Shown here: in pieces, positions 3,775 through 24,100 of the stretch
Layout of the letters: the number at the start of each line of letters is the position of its first letter
How positions within the stretch are numbered: the stretch's first letter is position 1
DNA from: Bryum argenteum
Taxonomy: Eukaryota > Streptophyta > Bryopsida > Bryales > Bryaceae
Direction: 5' to 3'
Assembly (NCBI GenBank): GCA_037043015.1
Contig: CM073324.1
Coordinates: forward strand, 24,258,097 to 24,322,096
DNA: 64,000 nucleotides
The notes under the pieces: generated by a model
The model's database searches: none
What the model saw: only the letters and a program-made list of their open reading frames with translations
What the model was told of the DNA's origin: nothing
Translations under genes and position numbers: made by a program

Positions 3775-3784
3775 ATTGGAAAGC

Positions 3785-3836
3785 GGATGCTGCTTAGATG
3801 TGAGCCACGAGCAGCGAGCAGCGAGCCACGAGCAGG
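3785..3836 (+). repeat. Left terminal inverted repeat of the MULE
   Basis: Starts GGATGCTGCTTAGATGTG and continues with short internal repeats of GAGCAGC and GAGCCACGAGC. It pairs with 17733-17784. Confidence 0.88.
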
Positions 3837-4587
3837 AATATGTGAGCAAGGAGCAGGAACATGTGAGCAAGTCACTGTTCATAGTGTAATTTGGAGGAAA
3901 ATTCAGTTGATTTAAGTGAAAATTGAACAACTTTTAGGTATAGACATTAGAAATTCGGATGTAAGAAAGGGGGCCTATAAGCGTGGAATTTTAAAATCCC
4001 ACGGCGATAGGATCAATATGTAGATAAGATGACCATCTCAAAAAAACAATCACGAGTGACACCATACGGATAAATTAGGAATAAAATCGAAAAACATATA
4101 AGACAGACAAAAGAATATGATATATATCAACCACCGCAATGACCATAAACCGTACTTTGGAGCGATATACGAAGTTTTGAAGTATTATGGATATACTTGT
4201 ATCCTAATACATAAGAGGAAGTAATTCCTACAATCAGAAAGATAACTTCTATAAGCATAACAACAAATATATTAGTTGACAATGCAATCCTAGTTTAAGG
4301 TCTATGTATAATAACTTGCACGGGGCTAATGAACTTGTTCAACCATTCACTCTTTCTCTACAACTCCAAGACTCTAGAATCTGCATGACCTCGTTGTAGG
4401 AGTATGTAGGTCGGTGAATGAACTTGTCTGCTCTCATAGTTCAACTTACATAAGTAACGGAAAACATAATATAGGTGCTTGCTGCACGGCACCCACTTCC
4501 TACTCGCGCCTTAGAACTCATACCAACAAAGTCTTCGCAGTACATTGTGGAATAGTGCTCACCGACACAAGGTATGCCTTGTCTTTG

Positions 4588-7500
4588 TCATTGACAATGG
4601 TGATGACCACACCACACCCCGGTTGCGGAACCGTCGTCACTCCAGGTGATGTAATATCCGTTCATGTGGCCCGTCTTCATCCATCTGTTCTTGTGGTCGG
4701 CGCTAGGGGGCATCTGGACTCGACGACACTTCCTTCCAAACCTCATGCTTGGATGAGCATCCGTGTTGTCAGGAACATGGAATCGAGAACGTAGTATAGG
4801 AATATTCACCTGAGTTTGGAACTTCTGCCGAGGTGATAAAGCTTCTTGTTCTTTGCAATCGAACCCTGCATCTTCAAGCTTCAGAACCTCTTCGCGTGTC
4901 AAATTTGTACCAAACTTGACAGGCCAAGTAATGGGGACAGGGGGCCAATGTAAAACAAATGGCCTCTTGGTACCCATTACGCAACGATGAATGTCGTCCG
5001 GGCAGAAGAAGAACTCGGCTTCTACATTCCGACCCATTCTAACGTCTTTTTCATGCTGCGTAAGTTGGTGCGGGAGTGCCATTTGCCCCTTGTGAAATCT
5101 TGGTTACGCAAGCCTCTCCGAAATGGATTGAAGCGCTTGACATTGCCTCCCGAAGACTTCGGAAGACGAGCAATGTGCCATTGCTTGGGATCACACTGGA
5201 CTCCATCACCCTTGTCGTGTGAGAGACGTGGTGTTGAGGGCTTTTCGAGAGACTCCTCAATGCGTTGCCTCGTTGACCTAGTGTTCGGCTTGGGAATGGA
5301 ATAGTTTACCTTATCCGGCGTGCGAATCAAACTCGAAACCCGATGGTAAATTCACTTCTCTTAGTGGAACCAAAAATCTCAGCCCCTTCAAGAACAATTG
5401 GATGATCGGGAGATCTCCACCGCCAGAAATGACTTCATGGCGGCAATGAGCTTGGGATCACCGCTGCTTGTTGCTGCCCTTAGCTTCAAAGCGGCTTTAT
5501 CGGGGCCCTTCCCTCGTTGTCCACCTTTGAGCCATTCACGATAATTCGTGATCTGCATAAACGCTCGAATCATATCGTCTTGGGTTGCTTCATATAGGCA
5601 CTCCATGGTATTGCCAGGCTGCATCGGCCACTTGTGATGCACGGACTCGCTAGATTGCACGAAGGCATGTCTGCCCGTTGCTCTAGTGTCAAATCCTACA
5701 AAAGCAATTGAAGTACGGATGTCAACTTTAGTAGACAATACGCTCTTATTGCCAGGAAAAAAAAAAAGGTATATGAGCATCACCAATATCATTTGGCCAC
5801 CCCATTGTCTGTAGATCGATGGTGCCAAAATCCCAACCATTCGGATAGAGAAGACAAGCATTCTTCTCTTGTGCGCTGCCGGATGTTGCCCACCATGCAC
5901 GAATTGCATGGTATTTCTCGTCGACCTCCCCTTGGGTCTTTGCATCTCTCGTAATTGCGACAAAGTTGCTTGTCTTTGGAATTGCATCTCCGGTTTAATG
6001 TACTTCGTCGTATACTTATCAAGGTTTGCGGACCAATGATAAAAGCACGTCGTTCACGATCTTCCATAGGCTCATCCGGATTCCCGCATCCATACACCTT
6101 TCGACCGCTATCCAATTGGCTTGGGCACTATCCGCCATGAAACCCTTAAAGTTAACATTTGGGACGCCATTTTCGGCCATAACCTTGTTGAGATTCTCCC
6201 AGAAGAGAGTCTGGGCAACAACATCTTCAGATTGCATATCACAAAGAGCAATTGTCATTACCTTGCGATATTTGGTGTAAATAAACGTGGCGGCCAATGT
6301 CGTCCACTCTTTCACTCGTTTAACGTTGTCAAACATAATCCATGCATCTTGTAGTTCACCTCCCACCTGCATACGCTTCACGAGGTCGACACCACTCCCT
6401 TCGAGGTCCACGGACATCTTGAAAATGAATACCTTGTCGTCACATTGTCCTGGGAATCGATTATCATGCACAAACTTGAAGTGGGGATTCTTCTTGAGGT
6501 CGATAATCCCCTCCATAGGGGCACGCGAGGACTTCACAAGGCGTCTTGAAGCAGAGACAATGTTCCTACAATTAGGAGAGGCAAGAGGGGCAAAGCGATC
6601 CATGACTGATTCGAGACTAGGATGTTTCTCTCCTGGAGTTGGTGTCTTGAACAGAAAATCCGCTAGGAAGTTTTTACTTGCTGCCATTTGAATAGCGAGT
6701 TTTGTCGCCTTTGGAGTTCGTGACACTTGGATGCCAGGAACTCATACGTGAGATCTAATGAGTCCCGGCAGACGCCTTCCGCCACTGGATGACTGTGATG
6801 GCCCAGATGAATAAATGCACGCTGCATTGCGGGATTGGCACAAGTAACATGGTACAGTTGGGCATCACAGAGAGCTAAGCAAGAAGGTGGTGTTAGACAA
6901 ACCTTACACATGAAGGTAGATTTCTGGGGAGGGGGGCCACCGACATGGAATTGAGAGTGTGTAATACCCGTCCATTGTGTATTGTTCCGGACACCACCAT
7001 TTCGGAGAAGGTACTCAAAGAGTCGTTTGCACATTCTAGATGTCCAGTAAGACACGGAGCGTCGGAACACGAGGAGAAGTCGTTCGATGTTAGAGGTCTT
7101 GGTAGTGCACCACGGTTTGCCATCATAGACCTTGTCCATCCCGTCTAGGCTCTTGCCGTATGTTGCCGGAAATCCGTTGGTAAAGGTGGAAGCAAAAAAA
7201 ACAACATCTCCGTCGTAAGTGGTAGGGATGTACTTGACTTCTTTGACCCTGATGTTGTCGAAGTCGATGTCAGCTAGCGCGGATTGGGAACGTGGGCGAA
7301 CAGCAGTTGCCTTCAAGACATCTAACATGGATCTATATTTGACGGAGAATGCGGGACTACGGGGTGGCCTAGCTACACTACCTGATGGAGTCCTTTGGAG
7401 TTGCGAGTTGTTGTTGCTCCGTCACAAAGACTAGACAACGGGGTTCGTCCGAAAGAAAGCAAGTCTTGCGGATCAACTGTTGGATCTATGTCATCATCAG

Positions 7501-8011
7501 AGTCACTCAGAAGCGTGATGGGCTCCGTATCTGGCTCAATCTTCACTCGCACTGGCGGGGTGAGGAGGACAGTGGAGGTGACAGAAGCTGGAGTCAGGCA
7601 CACTGTAGATCCTTGCAAAGCCGAGCTCAAGTAACCAAATACTTTGTAAGACCCAGATGACAACAACCAACCTACAGAATCACCTTGCCTAGTTTGCAAT
7701 TGCAGAACAGTCTCCACTATATCACCGACATCAGAGATAAGCTCTTGCTCAATGTACATCCTATCCATCTGAAGACCAAACTTCGCCTCCAAGATCGATT
7801 CGTCCACATAAACCTTGCCATCTTCGCCAAGAGGCAAAGTGAAAGGGATACCAACTCCGTTTGCACGAATGGACGCCATCATCAAAGAACGGGAGCACGC
7901 AGGTATGTCCGCCTTAGATGGTACACAAATCGCAAAGAAGCATTCAGTTATTCCATAAACCTTATGTAGCTCAACAATGATAATGCGACTACGGATGAAG
8001 TTGTGGTTCAT
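4588..8011 (-). pseudogene. MULE-type DDE transposase, frameshifted
   Basis: Fragments in several frames form one protein in order. N-terminal part (8011-7373): acidic region with VKIEP and ITLLSDSDDD. Next (7328-6663): DVVFFASTFTNGF, a Cys-containing stretch, and RAFIHLGHHSHPVAEG. Then the catalytic core (about 6720-6050): WTTLAATFIYTKYRKVMTIA, MQSEDVVAQTLFWENL and GFMADSAQANW, which fits the order of the MULE core with E in MQSED and the last D in FMADS. C-terminal pieces follow (about 6115-4588), e.g. GNPDEPMEDRER, then ECLYEATQDDMIRAFMQITNY. The reading frame changes near 6700, near 6060 and at least once in each C-terminal piece, so this copy cannot make a full transposase. An intron is likely between about 7390 and 7370. 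The gene reads toward the left end of the element. Family assignment rests on motif layout. Confidence 0.75.
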
Positions 8012-8611
8012 TAATGTCGGGAAGAATGAAGAATTAAATTATCTTTTAATTCATTGTATTACGATTGAGGAGAGATATGATTATAGTGTGTATAAATAGG
8101 CAACCGCCGTCCGAAAAAATCACGATGGCTTTTCCACCATTTAGCCACAAATATGAGAGAATGTCAGCATACATATCGTTGATGTACTTCCAAAATCTAT
8201 TAGTTCAATTGTCGCATGCACGTGACTAAGCAAAAATAGATTAGCTAGATGCAATCCCAGTATTTTACTAAAAATCCTAAATACTAAAAATGTATTAAGT
8301 GTTGACAGCCTTGAAAAGCGACTAAGTAAGGGTCACATTATGAGCTCGTTTTAATAGTATAGGTATCAGACCTAGTAAGATAAAATCATACTCCGCCGTT
8401 TTTCAAAAATACATTTACAAAAACAGCACATATATTGCAAAACAAATTCATATTGTAGTTGGTCAGTACTAATTTATTTTTCGAATGATTTTAGGAGTCG
8501 ATACATTCTTGATGAGTGTTGGTTGAAATGGTGAGCAATGTTAAGGCTCGAGTTGAAGAGAGCTCTACGAGTATTTTGTAGTCAGAGAAGGTCTTTATAT
8601 AACGTAGACAC
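8012..8611. promoter_or_regulatory. Divergent promoter region between the two transposon genes
   Basis: About 600 AT-rich bases separate the minus-strand transposase start (8011) from the plus-strand ORF at 8612. TATA-like sequences are at 8092-8099 (TATAAATA, reads on either strand) and 8593-8599 (TATATAA). The second lies too close to the ATG for a normal leader. Assignment is by position only. Confidence 0.35.
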
Positions 8612-9064
8612 ATGAAGGAAGGTGAAGCGTCGACTCCTCCCACTTTTGTGACACCTAAGCGGAGGAGGAAACGGGGAAGCACAAACTTTTCGAATAGGAA
8701 AGCGAGACAAAGGAGAGAAGCACGAAAGAAGGTAGATGGGAATAGAACTCTTCCAAATGCACCTGTGAAGGTCCAAGGAGATGCGTCGGGCGTTAGTTTA
8801 AGGTTTCGAAGCATTCGTAAACTCCTTATAGAATCTATAGTTGAGAGAGAAGAAGAGGATATTGAGGACACCATTGTTCGGTGTCACCAGCACGACACAC
8901 ATAACATTGAGGGAGTAGGCCACGAAATGAATGAGGAGCACTACTTGGAGTATGAACAGTCGCCAGAGTCACCGCAACCTTCTATCGGTAAAAAATACTC
9001 TCCATCAGGTGACGATTTCGTAGATAATATATCAGGAGAAGATTGCGACCCGCAAGAAGTAAGT
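8612..9064 (+). CDS. Basic-then-acidic ORF, possible first exon of the methyltransferase gene
   Basis: The ORF starts MKEGEASTPP and has a nuclear-signal-like TPKRRRKRG and a second basic run (KARQRREARKK). It then turns acidic (VEREEEDIEDT; SGEDCDPQE). It ends at a good splice donor, GAA|GTAAGT (9065). Two continuations are possible. One uses the AG at 9136, giving RIHRILPLPLVLDW and a stop at about 9229, for a small protein of about 180 aa. The other skips the GC-rich block and joins the acidic exon at 12961 (ESSQDIMEIEDPAQ). The second fits better, because the acidic character continues and the methyltransferase ORF otherwise lacks a start. An in-frame stop lies just upstream of the ATG, which fixes the start. 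Confidence 0.55.
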
Positions 9065-10712
9065 TAACGATCTCAATTCCCTAAAGTGGATTTCATATTG
9101 TTACTTGACGTTGTGCTAATTATTTTAATGTGTAGAGGATTCATCGTATTCTTCCACTTCCATTAGTCCTTGATTGGAAAGGGTTGTTCACGGAGTCCAT
9201 AACTCACATTCTTGGTAGGAGGAATTAGGGTTTTTCATTCCAAGGCGGAGTAGGAGCAAGGTGGGGCGGTTTAGGATCCGGGAGTATAGAGGCGGGCGAA
9301 GGAGGGTCGAAGGGAGGAATGGAGGGCGAAGGAGAAGCTTGGGAAGGAATGGAATCCGAGGCCAAGGAAGGCAAGTGGAACGATCGGCGGCCGCAACCAA
9401 CATGGAGCGGTGAGTATTCGTTGGAAGGCATGGGCATTCTTCCATAGTGTGTTTTAGGGTTTGTCGGCTCGGAGGGTTTGCCGCGGGAGTGGTTACGGTA
9501 GGGAGGGGAATGGTCGAGAGAGTGTGGGAGGGTCCACGGTCGAGGAAGCGATGGTCGGGAGGTGCCGAAATTTGGCGGTGGGGAGGGGAAGTGAAGTTGG
9601 GAGGGAAAGAGATGTGGGGGAGTGAAATCGGAAGGCGGCGAGATGGTCGCGAAGTGCAGGAGGAGAGGATCGGTTTGGCGGTGGTGATGCATGGATTGGA
9701 CGAGCCGAAAGTCCATCCGTTGATTCGGATCGATCCGACAACGGCTCCTCCCACACAACGGCTCCTCCCACACCACCATCTGCTCCGACAATGGCGGCGG
9801 GACGGGCGAGAGAGTTTTGGGGAGACCCACTCCCACGTCCTCCACACGCGTCGGATGACGACGAAGATACCTGTCAAACTTACCATGAAACCCGCACAAG
9901 CGAGGTTGAGCACGCGCGAGTCGAGCTGCGCATGAACCTGCGAAGTGTGGCTTCGTGACGACGTACACTTACTCTGCTTTGGGTTGTGATTCCTCGTGAC
10001 GGTCACAGTGCCTTCGGGACAAAACGCTTACCACTCAAAGCTCTTCTGTTGGTCGATACCTTTCATTGAACATCCTTCTCGCCACCTGCCGTTCAGTTGT
10101 CGCTTCAAGGTACCGTATTCCGTGTTTCTGCTCTCCTCATTTGATGCTGTTCGCATGCATTGTGAGTCTTCATCTTCGAAGAGACGGTTTGTTTATTTTT
10201 TCGGCTTTTCTATGGATCTCATATTGGCAATGAAAAGGTCTGGACTATTTTGTGCGAAGAGAAAGAATTTTTAATTTAGTGGAACAGAAGTCGAGGAACC
10301 TTTCTTTATAGTCTTTCGTGTCCTTTGATCTCTTGGGAGAGCGATATAGATTTTCGAGCGGGCGTTCGTGCGGCTCTGTGCATTTTAGAGAGAGGCGTGT
10401 GTGCGGCTATCCACGAGTCCGTTTCTTTGCAATACATTTCTTGGAGTATTGTGGTGGCGCATTTTTTCTAGCGGCGGGAAATAGAACATAATGCTCCTTG
10501 TTCAATTTTCGGTATCGTTGTCGTGTGTGGTAATTTGTACTCGATTTTCTGTCCGTCTCTACCTTCTAAAAACTTAAATTGTTCCATATTCATTCACTGG
10601 ATGATGGTGGAAGGGAGTGATATTGACGACTCACGTTCCTAATTCTGGTTTCGGCTTGTTCAGGAAATTTGCTGCGAACGAAGCATCGTAGAAAGGTGTT
10701 AAGAGACCGGTT

Positions 10713-10997
10713 TTGAGAATGAACAGCCGAGCATTACTCTTGAGAAGGTCATTCTTTTGTGCTGAACGCGAATTGTGCCTTCATGGTCGGGGCTTGAGAA
10801 CATTTGCTGGAGACACATCTGGGCTTGGCTGTAGTTTATGCTTTCATGGACAAATACATCTTGAGTCGTCACATCGTTTGAGGTGGCAAGCGAATGCAGT
10901 TGCCGAGCTCTCCAGGACTGATTCTACTGACATTGGCAGCAGCGCAAGAGACGATTTATCGAATGTAGACTCTGCTGTGTACATCATCAAAGAGTAA
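10713..10997 (+). CDS. Possible captured first coding exon, organelle-targeting-like
   Basis: The ORF reads MRMNSRALLLRRSFFC, then RGLRTFAGDTSG. It is rich in Arg, Ser and Leu and poor in acid at its start, as in mitochondrial presequences. An AG acceptor (near 10663) precedes it and a GTAAGA donor-like site lies near 10994, so it resembles a first coding exon with a 5' leader intron. I do not recognise the protein. After the putative donor the sequence runs into the satellite, so any gene is broken here. Confidence 0.25.
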   Translation: MRMNSRALLLRRSFFCAERELCLHGRGLRTFAGDTSGLGCSLCFHGQIHLESSHRLRWQANAVAELSRTDSTDIGSSARDDLSNVDSAVYIIKE

Positions 10998-11138
10998 GAG
11001 CTTGTGCTTGCTCGAAATTGAAGCCTTTCCAGATTCTAACTGCACTTCATATTGATCAGATGACTTTTTACTTATCATTTACGCTTATGAAGACGATTTA
11101 CATTTCCAGGATATGTGCATGATGCCACGGTTATTTTT

Positions 11139-12690
11139 GGGCCGTGAGGGCGCAAACTCGGCGTTCAGATTTTGTTTTTCGTCGTCCTCGCGTTCTCGGA
11201 CGAGCCTCGGCGGATCTCACCACGCCACGCACCCACCGCCTGCTCCGACAGGTGGGCCGCAACGGCGCAAGCTCGGCGTTGAGGTTTTGTTTTCCATCCT
11301 CCTCACCTTCTCGGAGAGAGCCTCGGCCGGATCCCACTGTCTGCTCCGACAGTGGGCCGCGAGGGCGCAAGCTCGGCGTTGAGATTTTGTTTTCCGTCGT
11401 CCTCGCCTTCTCGGAGAGAGCCTCGGCCGGATCCCACCACGGCCACACACCCACTGTCTGCTCCGACAGTGGGCCGCAACGGCGCAAGCTCGGCGTTGAG
11501 GTTTTGTTTTCCATCCTCCTCACCTTCTCGGACAGAGCCTCGGCCGGATCTCACCACGGCCACGCACCCACTGTCTGCTCCGACAGTGGGCCGCGAGGGC
11601 GCAAGCTCGGCGTTGAGATTTTGTTTTCCGTCGTCCTCGCCTTCTCGGAGAGAGCCTCGGCCGGATCCCACCACGGCCACGCACCCACTGTCTGCTCCGA
11701 CGGTGGGCACGCACGGCGCAAGCTCGGCGTTGAGGTTTTGTTTTCCATCCACCTCACCTTCTCGGGACAGAGCCTCGGCCGGATCTCACCACGGCCACGC
11801 ACCCACCACCTGCTCCGACCCGATGGGCGCGAGGCGCAAGCTCGGCGTTGAGATTTTGTTTTCCGTCGTCCTCGCCTTCTCGGAGAGAGCCTCGGCGGAT
11901 CCCACCACGCCACGCACCCACCGTCTCGCTCCGACAAGTGGGCCGCAAACGCGCAAGCTCGGCGTTGAGGTTTTGTTTTCCATCCACCTCACCTTCTCGG
12001 GACAGAGCCTCGGCCGGATCTCACCACGCCACGCACCCACCGCCCCGCTCCGACGGTGGGCCGCGAGGCGCAAGCTCGGCGTTGAGATTTTGTTTTCCGT
12101 CGTCCTCGCCTTCTCGGAGAGAGCCTCGGCGGATCCCACCACGCCCACGCACCCACCGTCTCGCTCCGACGGTGGGCCATAACGGCGCAAGCTCGGCGTT
12201 GAGGTTTTGTTTTCCATCCACCTCACCTTCTCGGGCAGAGCCTCGGCCGGATCTCACCACGCGGCCACGCACCCACCGTCTCGCTCCGGCGGTGGGCGCG
12301 AGGCGCAAGCTCGGCGTTGAGATTTTGTTTTCCGTCGTCCTCCTCGCCTTCTCGGAGAGAGCCTCGGCCGGATCCCACCACGGCCACGCACCCACTGTCT
12401 GCTCCGACAGTGGGCCGCAACGGCGCAAGCTCGGCGTTGAGGTTTTGTTTTCCATCCACCTCACCTTCTCGGACAGAGCCTCGGCCGGATCTCACCACGG
12501 CCACGCACCCACTGTCTGCTCCGACAGTGGGCCGCGAGGGCGCAAGCTCGGCGTTGAGATTTTGTTTTCCGTCGTCCTCGCCTTCTCGGAGAGAGCCTCG
12601 GCCGGATCCCACCACGGCCACGCACCCACTGTCTGCTCCGACAGTGGGCCTTGGGGGCCGCGAGGGCGCAAGCTCGGTGTGGATTTTTTG
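11139..12690 (+). repeat. Hairpin satellite: 13 units of ~117 bp, two alternating types
   Basis: Thirteen units, most 116-117 bp. They alternate strictly between type A (TTGAGATTTTGTTTTCCGTC, ending CGCGAGGGC) and type B (TTGAGGTTTTGTTTTCCATC, ending CGCAACGGC), so the real period is a ~234-bp dimer: A B A B ... A. Most units contain a hairpin, e.g. CCCACTGTC-TGCTCC-GACAGTGGG at 11333-11356, 11450-11473, 11567-11590, 12391-12414, 12508-12531 and 12625-12648. The 12152-12176 unit has the paired variant CCCACCGTC / GACGGTGGG. A 14th, degraded unit ends the array. Because 117 is divisible by three, several frames stay open for up to about 300 codons; these are not genes. Confidence 0.95.
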
Positions 12691-12960
12691 TTTTGGTTTC
12701 CTACGATTGTCGCGCATGTGGGTGGATGTTTCGGGTGATAGGGAGCGGAGAGGGACAGGAAGTGCTCGCAGACTGTGTGCGCGCTGGAGGGGAGCAAGGT
12801 TTGGGCCGGGAATGAGGCCGCGGTCCTACTGTTAGAGCAGAGAGTGGGCCGCGTCGGCAGAACCTCTGAGTTTCGTTTGTAACAATATAGACAATACCAT
12901 GTGGCTTCCTCTACTATGCTTTCAAATGTTTTTAATATTCTATTGATGTTCTCTTTTTAG

Positions 12961-15900
12961 GAGTCATCTCAAGACATCATGGAGATCGAAGACCCAGCCC
13001 AGATTCCGGAGGAAACTGAGGTATTTAAAGTGATTCGAACCTTGGAATTCTTTGTGGGTGGTACATTTATATCTTGAATTTCTTTTCAGTTCTGTTAACT
13101 TCTTTAATCGCTTGGTCGTTAAAAAGCGCGCCTAATTTGGACTTGTACAAAGGCTAGGGATTACTAGAGACGTTCGTCACGTAGACTTGCTTCGAAGTGA
13201 TTCTTTGGGCGACATATGATCATTGAGTTGTGACATGAGACTTTTATTTAAGAGATGATTTCGTGATGATTTCAGTATGATCTTCTCTAATGATTTCACT
13301 TCTCGATGTGTTGAGGTTCAGTATTTAATTGTATAATATTTGGCAGGAATATCAAACTCAAGACGTGTTGCCAACAACTTCTTGTCCCAGTGGCTTGAAC
13401 AACGCTCTTGAAAGCGAATTGCGGCATCGAACACAGCACAAGGTGGACTCCATCAACGTCATTAACAGCCTTCGAATTCATCCCTTGAAGAAGTCGCGGC
13501 TGCTTGTCCCCTTGTGTCGGATGATATCAATGGCTAAGGTAAGGCCAATTGGTGAAATGGGAATACAGCATCTGGAGAGGGAGTTTGTGAAGGGCTATCG
13601 AGATGGAGACCGCGTCATGTACATTTCTATGTACAACAACGAGGAGTTGTCATCGGATGTTACGGAGGAGGTTAAGTCCAGTTGGAGCCCACTTTGGCAA
13701 TCGGCGAACCAAGCTTTTGAAGAAGAGCTTCAAAGTGACTGTGATCTACGGCAATTCTCTGGAAAGATGTTCTTTGTTTGGGAAGGTAACCATCGCCTCC
13801 ATGCATGGTTAAGACATATTAATAATCATCATGGCGAGGACCCCGATTGGCACATCTCTGTGCATTGCATTCTTCTAGATCCCCGTGGTCAAGTTGGCAA
13901 CCTTCTTCATGCAATGCACGATATCAACTGGTAAGTGTCTACCTCTTTCTTTTTATCCACACTCTTGAAAGCTAGGTTTTATTTTATACATGTAGTGCTA
14001 ATTCTCTTCTTTTTTGTGTAGGTCTACTGAAAATGACCACGTGAAAAGTAATCTTCCCGCAAAGCTTTTCCGCATTCGATCGTTTGGTGCTATGAAGTTG
14101 GAGGAATTCAAGGATCTCCTCACTCCAGATGAGTTCCGTATCTGTTTGACGAACAAGCCATCTAATCCGAGATGGTTTACATTGACAACGAAAGTATTCA
14201 TTGCCTTCCTTTACCGAGTAAGTATTCATTCAATACTTAGTTATCATTTGTTCCGTAGAAGGATTCATAGTTTGAATCCGTTTCTCAATTTATTTTCTTT
14301 TTACAGCGGGAGATTGCCGCGGCTTCGGATGAAGCCGCTAGGGCATACACTGAAAAAACACCCAAAGAGGAACAAACTGCTACAGGAGTTTGGGATGCAA
14401 TGACATTGGCATCAGATAACATGGTCGATGCCATTAAGAAGAAAGACTTCACCAAGTATTTGGCTATCGCTAATCCCAAAAATGGCGACGATTTTCTCGG
14501 CGAGGTGAGACTCTAAACACTACTATGGTAGTTATATTGAACATATTTTACTATCATTCAATTTATCTACGTGGTTATGTCATGTTATTCTCTCAGATCA
14601 ATCGACATTTCAGTGAATTTCAGAAACCTGAGATGACACTTGATAAGCTCCAGAAGATTGTTCCCGCTAATGTGGAAGCCAAATACAAAGCGCGTTGGCT
14701 GAGGTGGTGGAACTCTTCCCCAAGTTCGCGGGTTTTTCGTATAGATTTCTCCCGCCGAATTCAAGGAAGCCGACCTCGACCCTTGGTTGAACAAGGCAGC
14801 ATTTTGGGCAGGGGTATAGTTTCCATAAATCCTTTCAAATTGCTTAAAATATTCTCAATTCGGCTCAATTCATTCTCGTCTCTCATGAATTACATTTGTT
14901 CTTCTAGTTGGAGGAAGCCGTTGTTCACGAGTTCGAGGACATATGCAAGGCGGAGAAGCTCGTCATCAACTGGAAGGCATCTCCAGATGTTCTGCGACAT
15001 GGCGCCTATGTGGACAGTTGGCGTATTCTACTATGGGAGAAGGCATTCCCCACATTCATAGGTCCCAGAATTGAGAAGGTTTTTGATAAGAAGTCAAACT
15101 TCAGCAAATTCCCGGGAACGTCAGAGGTTGTCAAGCGGGTTACGTACCGGTATGCACACGAACTCAACCTCCCTTGCTTTATCATTGATGTCCCTTATTC
15201 TACGATACCTTAGTGACTAGAAAAAATTGCATTTGTAATTGATTAGGTACTTCAAGAGGGAGCTACTTCCGAAAGGTGCCATCGATGTACAATCGCTCCC
15301 GAAGTACTTTGCAGCATGGATTCAGAAAGGTTCAGACCAATGTATCTATACTGCTCAACAGTTGAAAAGGTACAAACAACCACACTTGGATGCAGGATGT
15401 TGGTATCTCGACTGCGTTCGTGGATTTGTCTTTGATTCAGAGGCCGAGGTGATGACCTTACATGATGGCGGACTGGAGGTGGAAGAAGATACCATGCAAG
15501 TTCGTGAAGAAGACGAAGGGCTCCAGGATCAGTCCTTTGTAGCGCCACCTAAGCCGAAGAGGGCGACGTTTGCGTCGAGGGCGGACATTGTGTCCTTGGG
15601 TTGAGTCCCAAGCATCGAACTAGGGCAAACGGAGTCATCCGCACAAGGGTCCGTGCCGTCCTTGCAACTCAATCTAATGTCGTCGCTAAACGTCACTTGC
15701 TCACGCGTCGACCGTGCCTTCCTCGGTGAGTGCATTCGAGATCACAAAAGGTCTCATTGAGCGGAGAGGAAGGCGAAACAAATCCCCCCCGCTGACTCTT
15801 CAAGTGGAATTCCACATTCGTCCAAAGTTTTCGTCTCCAACAATTACAGTGGAGACATTGATGTCTTTGCACTCAAAACGTACAAAGTTAGCGGTGGCGA

Positions 15901-17387
15901 TCAAAGATGGATTCAGTTTCACGACTTCATTCGCAAGGTACAATCCTTTACATGGACTCCCCTTGTATGCATTATTGTCTAATTAGTACAAGAAAGACTA
16001 ACTTTGCTTACTACTTTCTTCCCAGGTTGGAGAAGGCCGCAAACACAAGTTCCGAACGATGCGAGGAAGAGAAGCACTCGGGGATCGATTTGATCATTGC
16101 CGACATCCCTGAGAATCTACCCGTACCAACAATATCCAATCCTTCTTCAAGCATTCCGCCGTGGAACGCTCGACACACCGGATATGTGGAAACCATCTTC
16201 GAATTCACAAGCGATTTCTTGCAAAATGATGGTGCTCTCCTTCTCTTTCTCTGCGATGATCAACACCTTATTACGGACATTTTTGATCGTGGCTCACACC
16301 TACGACTTCGTGTTGCACAAGGATCGGTGGGGCATCAACGACACGGGCTTGGCTTCTCCAAAGGACTCCAACTCCACGGTAATTGAAACCATTCAATCCA
16401 ATGATGACATTGTGCACTCCGGTTATGAATTTAGTTGTTTTTTCTCACATGTTTTGGTTTCTTCGCAGTCTATTCGATTACGGATTTACGTCTTCATTCG
16501 AGGTGGCGGCGTGACCTCTACCTTCACATTCCGCATTTAAGAAATCGAGGTCATACATGAGGACGTTAATATAACCAAGAGCGATGCCCTGTTCAACCTC
16601 ACCACTTTGGAGACTCGGCTCATGAACGGGAACGTTCCTTGAGAGGACCAAGGAGAAAGCCCCTTTGTTTGTGCGGGCCCTCATTGAAGCGACTAACCAA
16701 GCCCGGTGACATAGTCCTCGATTGGAAGCGCGAAATAGTAACCGATCACTTAATCGTTCCGCATTTCCATTTTTCTCACTTTCTCGAATTCGATCTCACT
16801 TCTTTATGCTTTAAATTTCGGGGCTTCCATTAAGGCCTGCCAGGAGATTGGTCGCCATGTTCTGGCGTTTGAGGATGACGAACCCATCTACAACGCCCTT
16901 TTAGCTCCGTATGCCGCCCCTAAACATCTCATGGCCCCACCTAAACATCCAAGACCTTCGCCTGATGGCGAAGCCCGTAGCAAGAAACAAAAACGCAAAC
17001 GCTGGGATTGTAAGTAAGTCTTACTTTATATTTCCATACTCGTAGTCGCATCATCTTACCTTCACTTCTACATACATCTCTACGTATTCATTCTAACGAC
17101 TATTCGATACATACTGCAGAGTACTTGCAGCAACACCACGACCTCTGCCAAGTCCCGTGCCCATTCCATCGTGGCGTATAAACACCAGTCCCATTCAGCC
17201 TTATGTTCTTCTAGAGTACGCTGAAGAATTAGCACTAGCGTTTCAGTCCGGCGCCGTTAGATATGATCCTAGTCGAGCTACTACTTGTGATCCGAGAGCC
17301 CTTGTGTTTATGGATACCGAGGCTTTAGAAGGAGATTCTGAGTCCTGGAGATCAGATAGTGGAAGTAGCGATGGTAGCATATCTTGA
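12961..17387 (+). pseudogene. ParB-like domain / beta-class DNA amino-methyltransferase, decayed
   Basis: Exons at 12961-13020, 13347-13930, 14022-14217, 14307-14504, 14597-14813, 14908-15149 and from 15247 have good splice sites. The N-terminal part is ParB-like (HLEREFVKGYRDGDRV; WEGNHRLHAWLRHI, resembling the ParB GxRRxxA box). A middle region follows (DSWRILLWEKAFPTFIGPRI). Then comes a methyltransferase-like part: DLIIADIPEN at the position of catalytic motif IV, and FVRALIEAT, KPGDIVLDW and ASIKACQEIGRHVLAFEDDE, the C-terminal AdoMet motif I region of beta-class enzymes such as CcrM. A basic KKQKRKR and an acidic Ser-rich tail end at 17387. Damage: two frame changes at about 14690-14755, TGA at 15604, further stops or frame changes near 15767, 16280, 16530 and 16702, and a lost acceptor near 16828. 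Intact relatives would be predicted to methylate adenine N6 or cytosine N4 in DNA; which one cannot be told. Confidence 0.78.
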
Positions 17388-17732
17388 GTTTGAACGACGT
17401 TTCGAACATTTGTTGTTTTCATTTCATTTTATTTGATTTGATTGGACTTGATTGGATTTGATTACATATTGTTTCGAAATTTCATACACACACATCTAAC
17501 ATGTTTGTACTCGACCATCATGGTTTTATTAGTTTTTTCCCATTTTACATTCTTACATTTGTCCACGGTCATAGGTGTTGTTCTCTTTAATTCTCTCCAT
17601 TTCCAGAATGGGTCTTTCAATTTATAACCAAAATCTTCCATTAATAATGTTAAACCTTCCAAAAATCCACGGTCATAGGACCTCTTCGCCGAGACTGTTT
17701 TTGTTTTTTCCCCAGAAAGTCAACTCCCTGAG

Positions 17733-17784
17733 CCTGCTCGCGGCTCGCTGCTCGCTGCTCGTGGCTCACATCTTAGCAGCTGCC
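17733..17784 (-). repeat. Right terminal inverted repeat of the MULE
   Basis: The reverse complement starts GGCAGCTGCTAAGATGTG. Across the 48 bp from GCTGCT inward it differs from the left end at only two positions. Confidence 0.88.
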
Positions 17785-17794
17785 ATTGGAAAGC

Positions 17795-20391: not shown

Positions 20392-21072
20392 TTAAATATC
20401 TATAATATCACCGTCATCGTCATCGAGATACATGTTGGAAGCAGGTGCAGGTCTAGTATCGAATCTTGCTCGGATTTCATGGAGAATAGAATCCTCCTCT
20501 TCTTCCTCGTACTCTCCATCACCCTCCTCGTCACCAATCTCCTCCATCAAGTCATCCTCTTCTGTGGCTAACAACGCTAACCTCTTGTAGTAAGGCTCGA
20601 TCTCTTCGGCTCTTCCTGACCTATCTAATAGCATTATTATCAATTCTAGAGAGAGGACAAGCTGTGGACTGTCAACGCCCAGCTCTTTCTCCTGAATGGA
20701 GAGTACACGTTGCATCAATGACAGTGCCTCCTCGTACTTGCCTACGGCATGCAGAATGGACGCCAAACAATTGCACGCTTCTCCTGCAAAACAAACAATT
20801 GATTAATATGTTGTGGAAACTATTGTCACTGCGCTACAAAGGGCTCGGAGTACTTATTGTGATTCTACACCCTCATAAGATGAATGCTTCTGTTGTTAGA
20901 TGCACAAAATTATCAACTTTTACGTGTTCTAAGTTGAACCCAACTTTGTGCATAGAACTGAACCTAGATATGAATGCATAAATGTAAAAGCTTGGATGGT
21001 TTGATTGACATTAGTGACTTCATTGACCTTCAGAAGCTATTGATTGACATATTTTTATATGCATAAAAGCCA

Positions 21073-21122
<50 letters not shown>

Positions 21123-24100
21123 CCCTCTTGGACTTTGAGTCGTAAGAGCTTAGTGGAGCAACTCACCAATGACAGCGCTATCAGGGTCGAAATGAGCCTC
21201 TCGAATTTCCAATGCTCGGCGGGCAATAGGTTCAGCTTCAGCAGGTCGGTCCAAATGGTGCAAGGCAGTGGCAAGCATCTCCAAGGGCACGGAGACTTGA
21301 GGAGAATCTGGACCCAAGTCCTCAATTGCTAGTTTCAAGGTGCGCCGCAACAAAGGCAACGCCTTCTCATGCTTCTCACCCACAGCATACGCTGTTGCCA
21401 AGTTTTGCAGATGCACTATCAACGTCGGGTGCTCAGGACCCACTAACCTCTCTCTCACAACCAGATTCGTTTCCCACAGCTCCTCAGCCTCCTCGTTCCT
21501 GCCTACAAGGCTGAGGAGTTCCGCCAAATCTGCCCGCGCTGTTTCCAATGACGAATCATCTTCCTCCAAGTTGCTGCATGATTCCATAATTTGTATTCCT
21601 TCCTCGGACAATGCAATGGCGTCATCAACTGAACCTGTTAAAATTCCCACGATGGTTATTCAGTGCGTCAATGAGTGAAATGAATATACTCCGGAGAGAG
21701 TAGTGTGAACGGGAAGAGAGTGTGAAAGTTGTAGTTGCATACCCCCAGAAGCATATACTCGGGCTAGTGCACATTTAGCAATCCCATATCTCCCGTCCTT
21801 CGTTCCGTAAGCTTTCTCCACAAGCTCTATTGCTCTGTACAACCACAAGTCTGTTCAACAGATTGCAACTCAACTAGATGTGTCCGTGCAATAAGGGATC
21901 TCAAGGAACATCCTACAATTCAAGGCATGCTTTTAGTCAACGGAGAATCCAGCGGTCAGATGCTATTTTGGAAAAGAGCATGATCTGGGTAGTATCATCA
22001 TCAAGGAGAGACTCAATGAAGCTAGATTTTGATTGTGATGACTAACCTCTGCAGAGCACTTTCAGCTTCATTGAGCCTCTCGACCTCCAGGAGGCACTGT
22101 CCTAATTTTGAAAGAGGGAGTGCAAGTGAAGTGTCTGCCGGCCCTCTTGTTTTCTCAATTATAGCTATGATACGATTGTACACCTCAATGGCATTTACAG
22201 AATCGTCCATATCGTTGTAACAGTTAGCCAACTCCAAAAGAGTGTCTGTTATCAATGGACTCTCGGCTCCTGCATATAAACAACACAACGACATGAGCTA
22301 CGTACTGGACTCGCATTATTTTAATGAAAGATCTTGGATCAACTACGCAAGAAACCACATCAAATTACTGACTTGAAGGCAAACCGTATTGTACTAAAAC
22401 CGTTGATGATAAATGCGAGTCTCAGAATAACAATAGACAAGAGAAGTGACCCTTGTTTACAGTGATGCTCGAAAGAATGTTCCATTGAATAAAAGGATGT
22501 TACCTACTTACCGACTAAATCCTCTTGAATTTCAAGACTTTTCAGAATTAAAGGAAGCCCCTCTTCAGGTTTGCCTAATTCAGTGTACATGGATCCTGTG
22601 TGTTCTAGTACCCTGTCGGCAAGAGGTTGTAGTGAATCGATACCAATATCCTCCATCAAATCTTTAATCTGCAGGCATGCACATGTTAAGATTACTGGAA
22701 GAAACAACAAATATTGAGTAGCAGAACTATTTGACAATACGAACCTGGTCTAGAAGAACTTCGGTCTCCTCGAATTCACCCATGCTCATTTTCAGAGAGG
22801 CGAGAGTATCCAGCATAGCTACTTGCTCCATTCCTCTATAGCCAGACTCGAGCTGCTCGGATAATACTTCAAGATTAGCATCTATTAAACCAAGAGCCCC
22901 TTCCGCATCTCCTTCTTCCACCAATTTAAGAACTTGATCCGTGAGCTCTTGTAGCTGTTCTTGCATGCCAGTCACTTCACTCACTAAGCCCTTCATATCA
23001 TTATAATCCACAGAATGCCTGTCAACAACCACAGATAATTAGAGGATAATAATATCATTATAAATATAACTGGGCTTGAAAATGCTTCTTCAACCTGAAA
23101 TAGTTTCAATCCGATATCTTACAAAAGACACGACAATATGGATGGAAAAGACTTACCCCATTTCCTTCAAGACATGCTCCGCAGTTCCATCGTCGTTTGA
23201 TTGCAAAGCCCTTGTAAAGCGGTTGAACTGATCCTCAAGCGGCGACTCCTGAGAGCCCCTGAAAGAAAGAGGATCCACCCAGAGGTAAATAAAGAAACCA
23301 AACCAAGAAGTGACAAAAACAAGTCTAACAAAGAGCCACAGTGACACGGCTTACCCCATTTCTTTCGTACCCTGCTCACGCTGCTCACCCTGCTCACCCT
23401 GCTCACCCTGCTCACCCTGCTCACCCTGCTTACCCATTAATCCACCATCTATTAAGAGAGACTTTGCGAATTGATTGAATTGATCTTCAACCGCTCCATC
23501 ATCGGTATACCTGGCAAACAAAGGGAAGAAATAAGATGTGATAAAAGCAACCAAGAAAACATGAAGGGAATGACCCCTTTGCTGACGAGAGGGAATAACG
23601 AAAACACCAGAAGCACAACTTACCCCAATTCCTTCATAATCTGCTCAGCTGCTTCGTTATCATTCTCTGCCATAGCCTTTTTGAAACGCTCATACTGTTC
23701 CTCAAGCACCGTATCCCCAAAACTTCTGCGAACAAGAAATTGATTAAGGCTGTTAGAACGAACTAGAGATACAACCATATGAATCCAAAAAACTTCATTA
23801 TTATCGCTCAAATGTATCGGTCAGATGACGACTTGTTACAAAAAAAAATTAGGTGATATCTGTGTGAAAACTAGGCTGGAGCAAGACGTGTTACTTAAGC
23901 ACATTATAGAAGAATTCAGAAGTCTCTGGTTTTATAACGAACACTTGAAACAGCTGGTCCACACCTATATTTTAAGCTCGACAATAATACATCTGAAACT
24001 CTCTCATCCAACATGAGAAACGCAAGAATACATAAAGTCTTACCCCATTTCATCAATAACCTGCTCAGCGAGCTTCTCATCTTGTAACAAAATCGCCTTT

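Follow-up and report, generated by a model that had tools for sequence, protein, structure and literature searches.

A MULE-like transposon of the moss Bryum argenteum with a recurrent ParB-like/methyltransferase-like second gene

Is a methyltransferase-like gene inside a plant DNA transposon cargo carried by a single element, or part of that element's regular gene set? The question is raised by a 64,000-nucleotide stretch of Bryum argenteum contig CM073324.1 (the window), where an element at positions 3785–17784 carries a transposase-like gene and, diverging from it, a gene with a ParB-like exon followed by methyltransferase-like exons. The original prediction, made from the letters of the window, described a Mutator-like element (MULE) with a ParB–DNA methyltransferase gene as cargo. 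We lean towards assigning the element, as a single copy, to a two-gene DNA transposon lineage that is large, old and diversified, and whose second gene would encode an accessory factor directed at the DNA of the element itself.

Recurrent pairing of the two genes

Searches of the genome gave 182 transposase loci and 266 ParB-like exon loci (both after merging), together with 107 methyltransferase exon loci, all of these numbers being lower bounds. Among the 182 transposase loci listed, the nearest ParB-like exon within 20 kb was divergent at 93, on the same strand at 6 and convergent at 1. Random placement, a control that used an assumed size for contig C11, gave 2.4 divergent pairs on average and a maximum of 7 in 200 runs. 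Seen from the other gene, 95 of the 266 ParB loci listed have a divergent transposase and 9 have one in another orientation. A ParB exon lies within 6 kb of 68 of the 107 methyltransferase exon loci listed (none is listed for the other 39); 67 of these 68 are upstream on the same strand, 66 of them at a distance of 2.3–3.4 kb. On this spacing, the ParB-like and methyltransferase exons are read as one gene. A divergent transposase was found within 25 kb of 56 of the 107 loci, 2 have one in another orientation and none is listed for 49. The pairing recurs with transposases down to 36% identity to the L049 transposase.

PF10551, the MULE DDE profile, has 74 matches in the genome. Of these, 31 from the upper half of the list were compared by script, the other 43 lying outside that comparison. 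None of the 31 adjoins the transposases described here within 3 kb, and as ordinary MULE loci they have no divergent ParB neighbour (1 on the same strand, 30 with none). The recurrent divergent pairing across the genome speaks against cargo picked up once by a single element, and that part of the original prediction falls: the gene recurs across the whole transposon lineage.

The ends of the window element were correctly described at the outset. The terminal inverted repeats (TIRs) pair over 48 bases, 46 of them identical (3789–3836 and 17733–17780), the full TIR measures about 52 bp, and a perfect 10-bp target-site duplication (TSD), ATTGGAAAGC, lies flush with both ends of the 14-kb element, whose coordinates are exact. 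TIRs of tens of base pairs and TSDs of 8–11 bp are the MULE pattern, and both are present. Searches with the left and right ends returned at least 65 and at least 50 matching pieces, respectively. Thirteen further places in the genome were fetched as 20 stretches; 12 of them are two-ended and make, with the window, a set of 13. An exact TSD of 9–10 bp was found in 12 of these 13, in keeping with the 9–11 bp foreseen for copies that share the TIRs. The shared strings measure 9–12 bp, a few of them extending 1–2 bases into an end. No exact duplication was found at the two-ended copy at C5:13.2 Mb, and C2:11.3 Mb, which has only its left end in the stretch fetched, was left out of the count.

A distant copy on C2 has a ParB-like exon about 50% identical to that of the window element, different TIRs, its own 10-bp duplication (CTTTTGTCCG) and the same gene order, its transposase being split by what looks like a nested retroelement. 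A related methyltransferase gene thus lies inside transposon ends elsewhere in the genome. The L048 copy, from a third lineage with such ends, has GAGC repeats on both sides; a 9-mer shared by its flanks sits off the end, and no TSD is claimed for it. All three lineages have the 7-bp nGAGCnn units, which may mark a binding site common to them. The L047/L050 genes were considered as host genes, a reading rejected on the divergent transposase about 5 kb away; element ends were looked for around them and not found.

The copies vary in length. Five of them (C10:8.11, C4:9.2, C5:4.33, C5:4.36 and C5:13.2 Mb) are shorter, at about 3.4–9.2 kb, with matching ends and little transposase region alignable to the window; they are apparent internal deletion derivatives. 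The copy at C8:15152703–15185692 covers 33 kb, with large unrelated open reading frames (ORFs) in the fetched right part, perhaps belonging to another inserted element. A first look gave 874–1202 candidates per exon query, of which 96–150 were scored each time, a hint of abundance only.

Relationships of the two genes

Pfam gave no methyltransferase match to the window's own exons, and a rough hand-joined string of them scored 11.5 bits against PF01555 (cut-off 26.7). Joined exons of the L047/L050 lineage scored 33.2 bits, and one exon by itself 27.6; genome-wide, 2 of 32 PF01555 matches are above the cut-off. The methyltransferase domain of L047/L050 also matched phrog_67 (E 1.4e-10, both halves covered) and PDB 5hfj, a solved enzyme named DpnA (E 2.1e-4). 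The window lineage is tied to the PF01555 family through its alignment with the L047 lineage. Motif IV precedes motif I, which is the beta-class order, and in four aligned lineages the S-adenosylmethionine (SAM) motif is preserved as A(S/G)TG; TASTGAS was read directly in L047, the join of motif I across an intron being predicted in the others. On these sequence features, the later part of the second gene is a relative of the beta-class N6/N4 amino-methyltransferases, and the view of a DNA transposon carrying a methyltransferase-like gene with introns is supported. The best-covered phage match, considered as a ParB fusion, proved to be a stand-alone DPPY methyltransferase and was rejected as such a fusion.

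The beta-class consensus for catalytic motif IV is (D/N/S)PP(Y/F/W), and none of the aligned lineages has the canonical form. Aligned with a phage DPPY enzyme, both the window lineage and L019/L023 have DIPE (DISE, DIPQ or DILE in single copies), L048 has ARCS and L047/L050 has DTPF. Since DIPE lacks the aromatic residue, ordinary amino-methyl transfer by the window lineage is doubtful; SAM binding or other chemistry may be compatible with the DIPE lineages. The suggestion that the element marks DNA with N6-methyladenine (6mA) or N4-methylcytosine (4mC) is accordingly weakened for the window lineage. At C4:20498302–20518172, the DTPF lineage has a pair of oppositely oriented ParB/methyltransferase genes separated by about 19 kb, a transposase lying between them, and one of the pair has a 98% identical copy on C7.

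The ParB-like exon contains a pattern, PLCR...VRP...GNHRxxAW, that is invariant across 8 aligned sequences, two pairs of which are near-identical. The ParB/sulfiredoxin fold has a beta-alpha core with a GxxR-type motif, and we take the GNHR motif, together with the order in which strands and helices are predicted, to fit a domain of this kind. The predicted structure of this part has a mean predicted local distance difference test score of 57, with means for 10-residue blocks of 51–91 over residues 81–220. Pattern scans of IMG/VR and GTDB genomes, a tblastn search of a phage collection and a profile search of PDB found no relatives, and a genome search with PF02195, the ParB N-terminal profile, gave one weak match (16.6 bits) elsewhere in the genome. 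The ParB name is thus one given from motifs, and the ParB/sulfiredoxin-like identity is a putative one drawn from GNHR and a half-confident model. Neither MULE nor ParB was found with Pfam on the window exons or with Pfam, PHROGs and NCBIfam on the exons of other copies.

The transposase gene is open in the copy at C4:6.06 Mb as ORFs of 807 and 447 amino acids. Its first half has Cys/His clusters, and its C-terminus has a CxC...CKH pattern, scoring 9.9 bits against Pfam SWIM (cut-off 19.6). The Pfam search gives the gene no family name, and hhalign placed FMADSAQ...CFYH on the second D and C-H motif of MULEs with a probability of 0.2% from a shallow profile. By its ends and duplication length the element is MULE-like, but its transposase goes unrecognised by the MULE profile.

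Constraint and the role of the second gene

Between window-family copies, the ratio of nonsynonymous to synonymous substitution (dN/dS) is mostly 0–0.3 in the ParB-like, middle, motif IV, first motif I and transposase exons; comparisons to L047–L049 are saturated and little informative. Most exon comparisons of both genes point to purifying selection and conservation as protein. Between the copies at C4:6.06 and C9:1.17, dS falls from 0.70 in the ParB exon to 0.02 in the motif IV exon. With dS so unequal between exons the elements look mosaic, and copies have likely exchanged sequence by recombination or gene conversion.

A gene kept with the transposase over wide divergence, and mostly under constraint, likely serves the element. 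As ancestor of the second gene we propose a beta-class DNA amino-methyltransferase of prokaryotic type that had a ParB/sulfiredoxin-like domain at its N-terminus. The protein encoded today would bind SAM and DNA and, as a standing accessory factor, would act at the ends or promoters of its own element, most likely countering host silencing or helping transposition. In the window lineage, it would probably work without canonical DPPY chemistry.

Several results weigh against this reading. PF10551 does not match the 807-amino-acid ORF of the C4:6.06 sister copy at E up to 10, so that, of the MULE-type transposase originally proposed, what stands is a transposase-like gene on the minus strand whose TIRs and TSD fit. 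PF02195 likewise does not match the exons of the window and other copies; the second gene is divergent and methyltransferase-like as first described, and the ParB name is the part left without a profile match. As many as 82 of the 182 listed transposase loci have no listed ParB partner within 20 kb, and 162 of the 266 listed ParB loci have no listed transposase partner within that distance, neither figure being a clean negative. The second motif I exon gives dN/dS values of 1.00, 1.08, 0.43, 0.50 and 0.50 against the C4:6.06 copy, which aligns badly there. Further high values are found for C9/C8 (motif IV 0.59, motif I 0.88, transposase 1.11) and for the transposase of C4/C9 (0.39). Finally, anti-silencing is a first guess for the function, made by analogy to the VANDAL anti-silencing proteins, to the SET genes that MuDR elements of Phytophthora carry and to the TET/JBP transposons of fungi.

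We know of no DNA transposons owning DNA-modifying enzymes other than these TET/JBP elements. They are fungal DNA transposons with TET/JBP as a recurrent second gene, for which escape from silencing has been proposed (PMC12730594). The moss element likewise has a recurrent second gene from a DNA-modifying enzyme family; it differs in lying in a plant, with an amino-methyltransferase-like gene in a MULE-like layout, where the fungal elements have a dioxygenase and belong to several other superfamilies. VANDAL MULEs are plant Mutator-type elements with VANC anti-silencing proteins (PMC10398659, PMC5735166) and duplications of 9 bp (PMC6446971). The window element shares with them a plant Mutator-like layout, an extra gene, which in VANDALs acts on the DNA of its own element and may do so here, and duplications in the 9-bp range. 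Anti-silencing of the VANC type consists in demethylating or activating the element in trans; VANC is not known to be methyltransferase-like, in contrast to the second gene here. MuDR has two genes, mudrA and mudrB. Two ORFs are also described for Hop-type MULEs (PMC6446971), and the window element resembles both in having a transposase and a second ORF.

Bacterial-type amino-methyltransferases of eukaryotes include bdelloid N4CMT (PMC8885841) and Marchantia MpDN4MT1 (PMC8566409), both reported to be active on genomic DNA; unlike the window gene, they are not presented as transposon genes in those accounts. Bacillus cereus Bce_0392 has a prokaryotic ParB-like domain fused to an amino-methyltransferase (PMC5512222) and so resembles the second gene in combining the two. 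The second gene differs in that no sequence relative of its ParB-like part was found in the phage, IMG/VR and GTDB sets searched. The main text of a MULE survey (PMC6446971) contains neither "methyltransferase" nor "moss", and a review of plant gene capture (PMC13317346) neither "methyltransferase" nor "ParB". No earlier description of a DNA methyltransferase-like gene carried by a transposon was found in searches mostly without full-text depth, and a review of eukaryotic adenine methylation by Iyer, Zhang and Aravind could mention one.

The main rival to anti-silencing, tenable if held tentatively, is that the protein is a transposition cofactor that binds the TIRs or central palindromes and aids excision or strand processing while taking no part in epigenetic control. 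The divergent pairing with the transposase favours it, as does the reported nicking of DNA by a ParB-methylase (PMC5512222). So does a minisatellite between the two genes, whose unit holds a palindrome with 9-bp arms; the same or a related palindrome occurs in arrays of the C4:6.06, C10:13.6, C2:29.4 and C10:8.11 copies. The central array is possibly a candidate array of binding sites. Against the cofactor, the C6 and C9 copies yielded no central palindromic array, which is therefore ruled out as a general feature of the element.

Somewhat less probable, and in our view rather doubtful, is a transposon-owned methyltransferase of prokaryotic origin with which at least the DTPF lineage would write 6mA or 4mC, the DIPE lineages having turned it into a SAM-regulated DNA-binding protein that recognises the GAGC-repeat ends or palindromic arrays, and the whole serving as an epigenetic label of self and non-self. 

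A methyltransferase-like gene in possibly hundreds of copies of a plant transposon lineage would in itself be a second, independent case of DNA transposons owning genes from the families of DNA-modifying enzymes, related here to enzymes that add methyl groups and do not remove them. Silencing by methylation is well studied in plants. The split between DIPE and DTPF predicts which copies can methylate, and "bacterial" methyltransferase genes in plant annotations may, as a caution, be transposon genes.

Active self-marking, in which a working methyltransferase would write 6mA or 4mC on the element and so block silencing or protect its ends, seems unlikely. It agrees with the SAM motif and beta-class motif order kept in the aligned lineages and with the DTPF of L047/L050, which is close to DPPF; the motif IV variants of the window, L019/L023 and L048 lineages speak against it. 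Capture in the manner of Pack-MULEs, with a host or bacterial methyltransferase gene merely carried by one element, has a precedent in the gene fragments captured by plant MULEs (PMC6431247) and is very improbable here, being contradicted by the genome-wide pairing with transposases as divergent as noted above and by the constraint in most exon comparisons.

State and surroundings of the window copy

Aligned to the C4:6.06 copy (C4:6064000–6078400) over 13928 bases, the window copy shows 209 mismatches (1.5%) and 120 single-base insertions or deletions (indels). It is broken in both genes, with 46 indels in 4400–8100 and 35 in 12900–17400. In older pairs, the ratio of indels to mismatches is 6:201 (right half) and 25:394 (left half) for C9/C6, and 12:212 and 32:199 for C10_4.15/C2_29.4. 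Indels are numerous in the young pair C10/C4 too (28:104 and 40:58), and the excess is thus not unique to the window. Clustered in patches, the window excess looks partly like an unpolished long-read consensus in a repeat. Simple decay was rejected as an unsafe account of the frameshifts, given so many single-base indels for 1.5% mismatches; they may be either real decay or unpolished sequence.

Table 1 Positions of the window element's features
Feature	Positions	Strand	Remarks
TSD ATTGGAAAGC, left copy	3775–3784		Exact, flush with element end
Left TIR	3785–3836	+	Core of 7-bp tandem units nGAGCnn
Transposase gene	~4372–7990	-	Frame cut into overlapping ORFs in window copy
Central 117-bp minisatellite	11138–12716		Consensus unit holds palindrome CCCACTGTC-tgctcc-GACAGTGGG; units vary
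ParB-like/methyltransferase-like gene	~12979–17387	+	About 11 exons; exon limits by eye; exon model predicted
Exon with ParB-like domain	13348–13934	+	PLCR, VRP, GNHRxxAW; exon start by eye
Exon with methyltransferase motif IV position	16025–16381	+	DIPE replacing DPPY; limits by eye
Exons with SAM motif I region	16468–17010	+	GDIVLDW / GASIKAC; frame disturbed in window copy; limits by eye
Right TIR	17733–17784	-	
TSD ATTGGAAAGC, right copy	17785–17794		Exact, flush with element end

The insertion is flanked by diverged direct repeats at 1–700 and 22584–23716 of the window, perhaps duplicated genes, with a TPR-type gene nearby at 20392–21659. The genes neighbouring the element include a member of the TCP1/cpn60 family, a GH28 gene and a C2-domain gene that we take to be MCTP-like.

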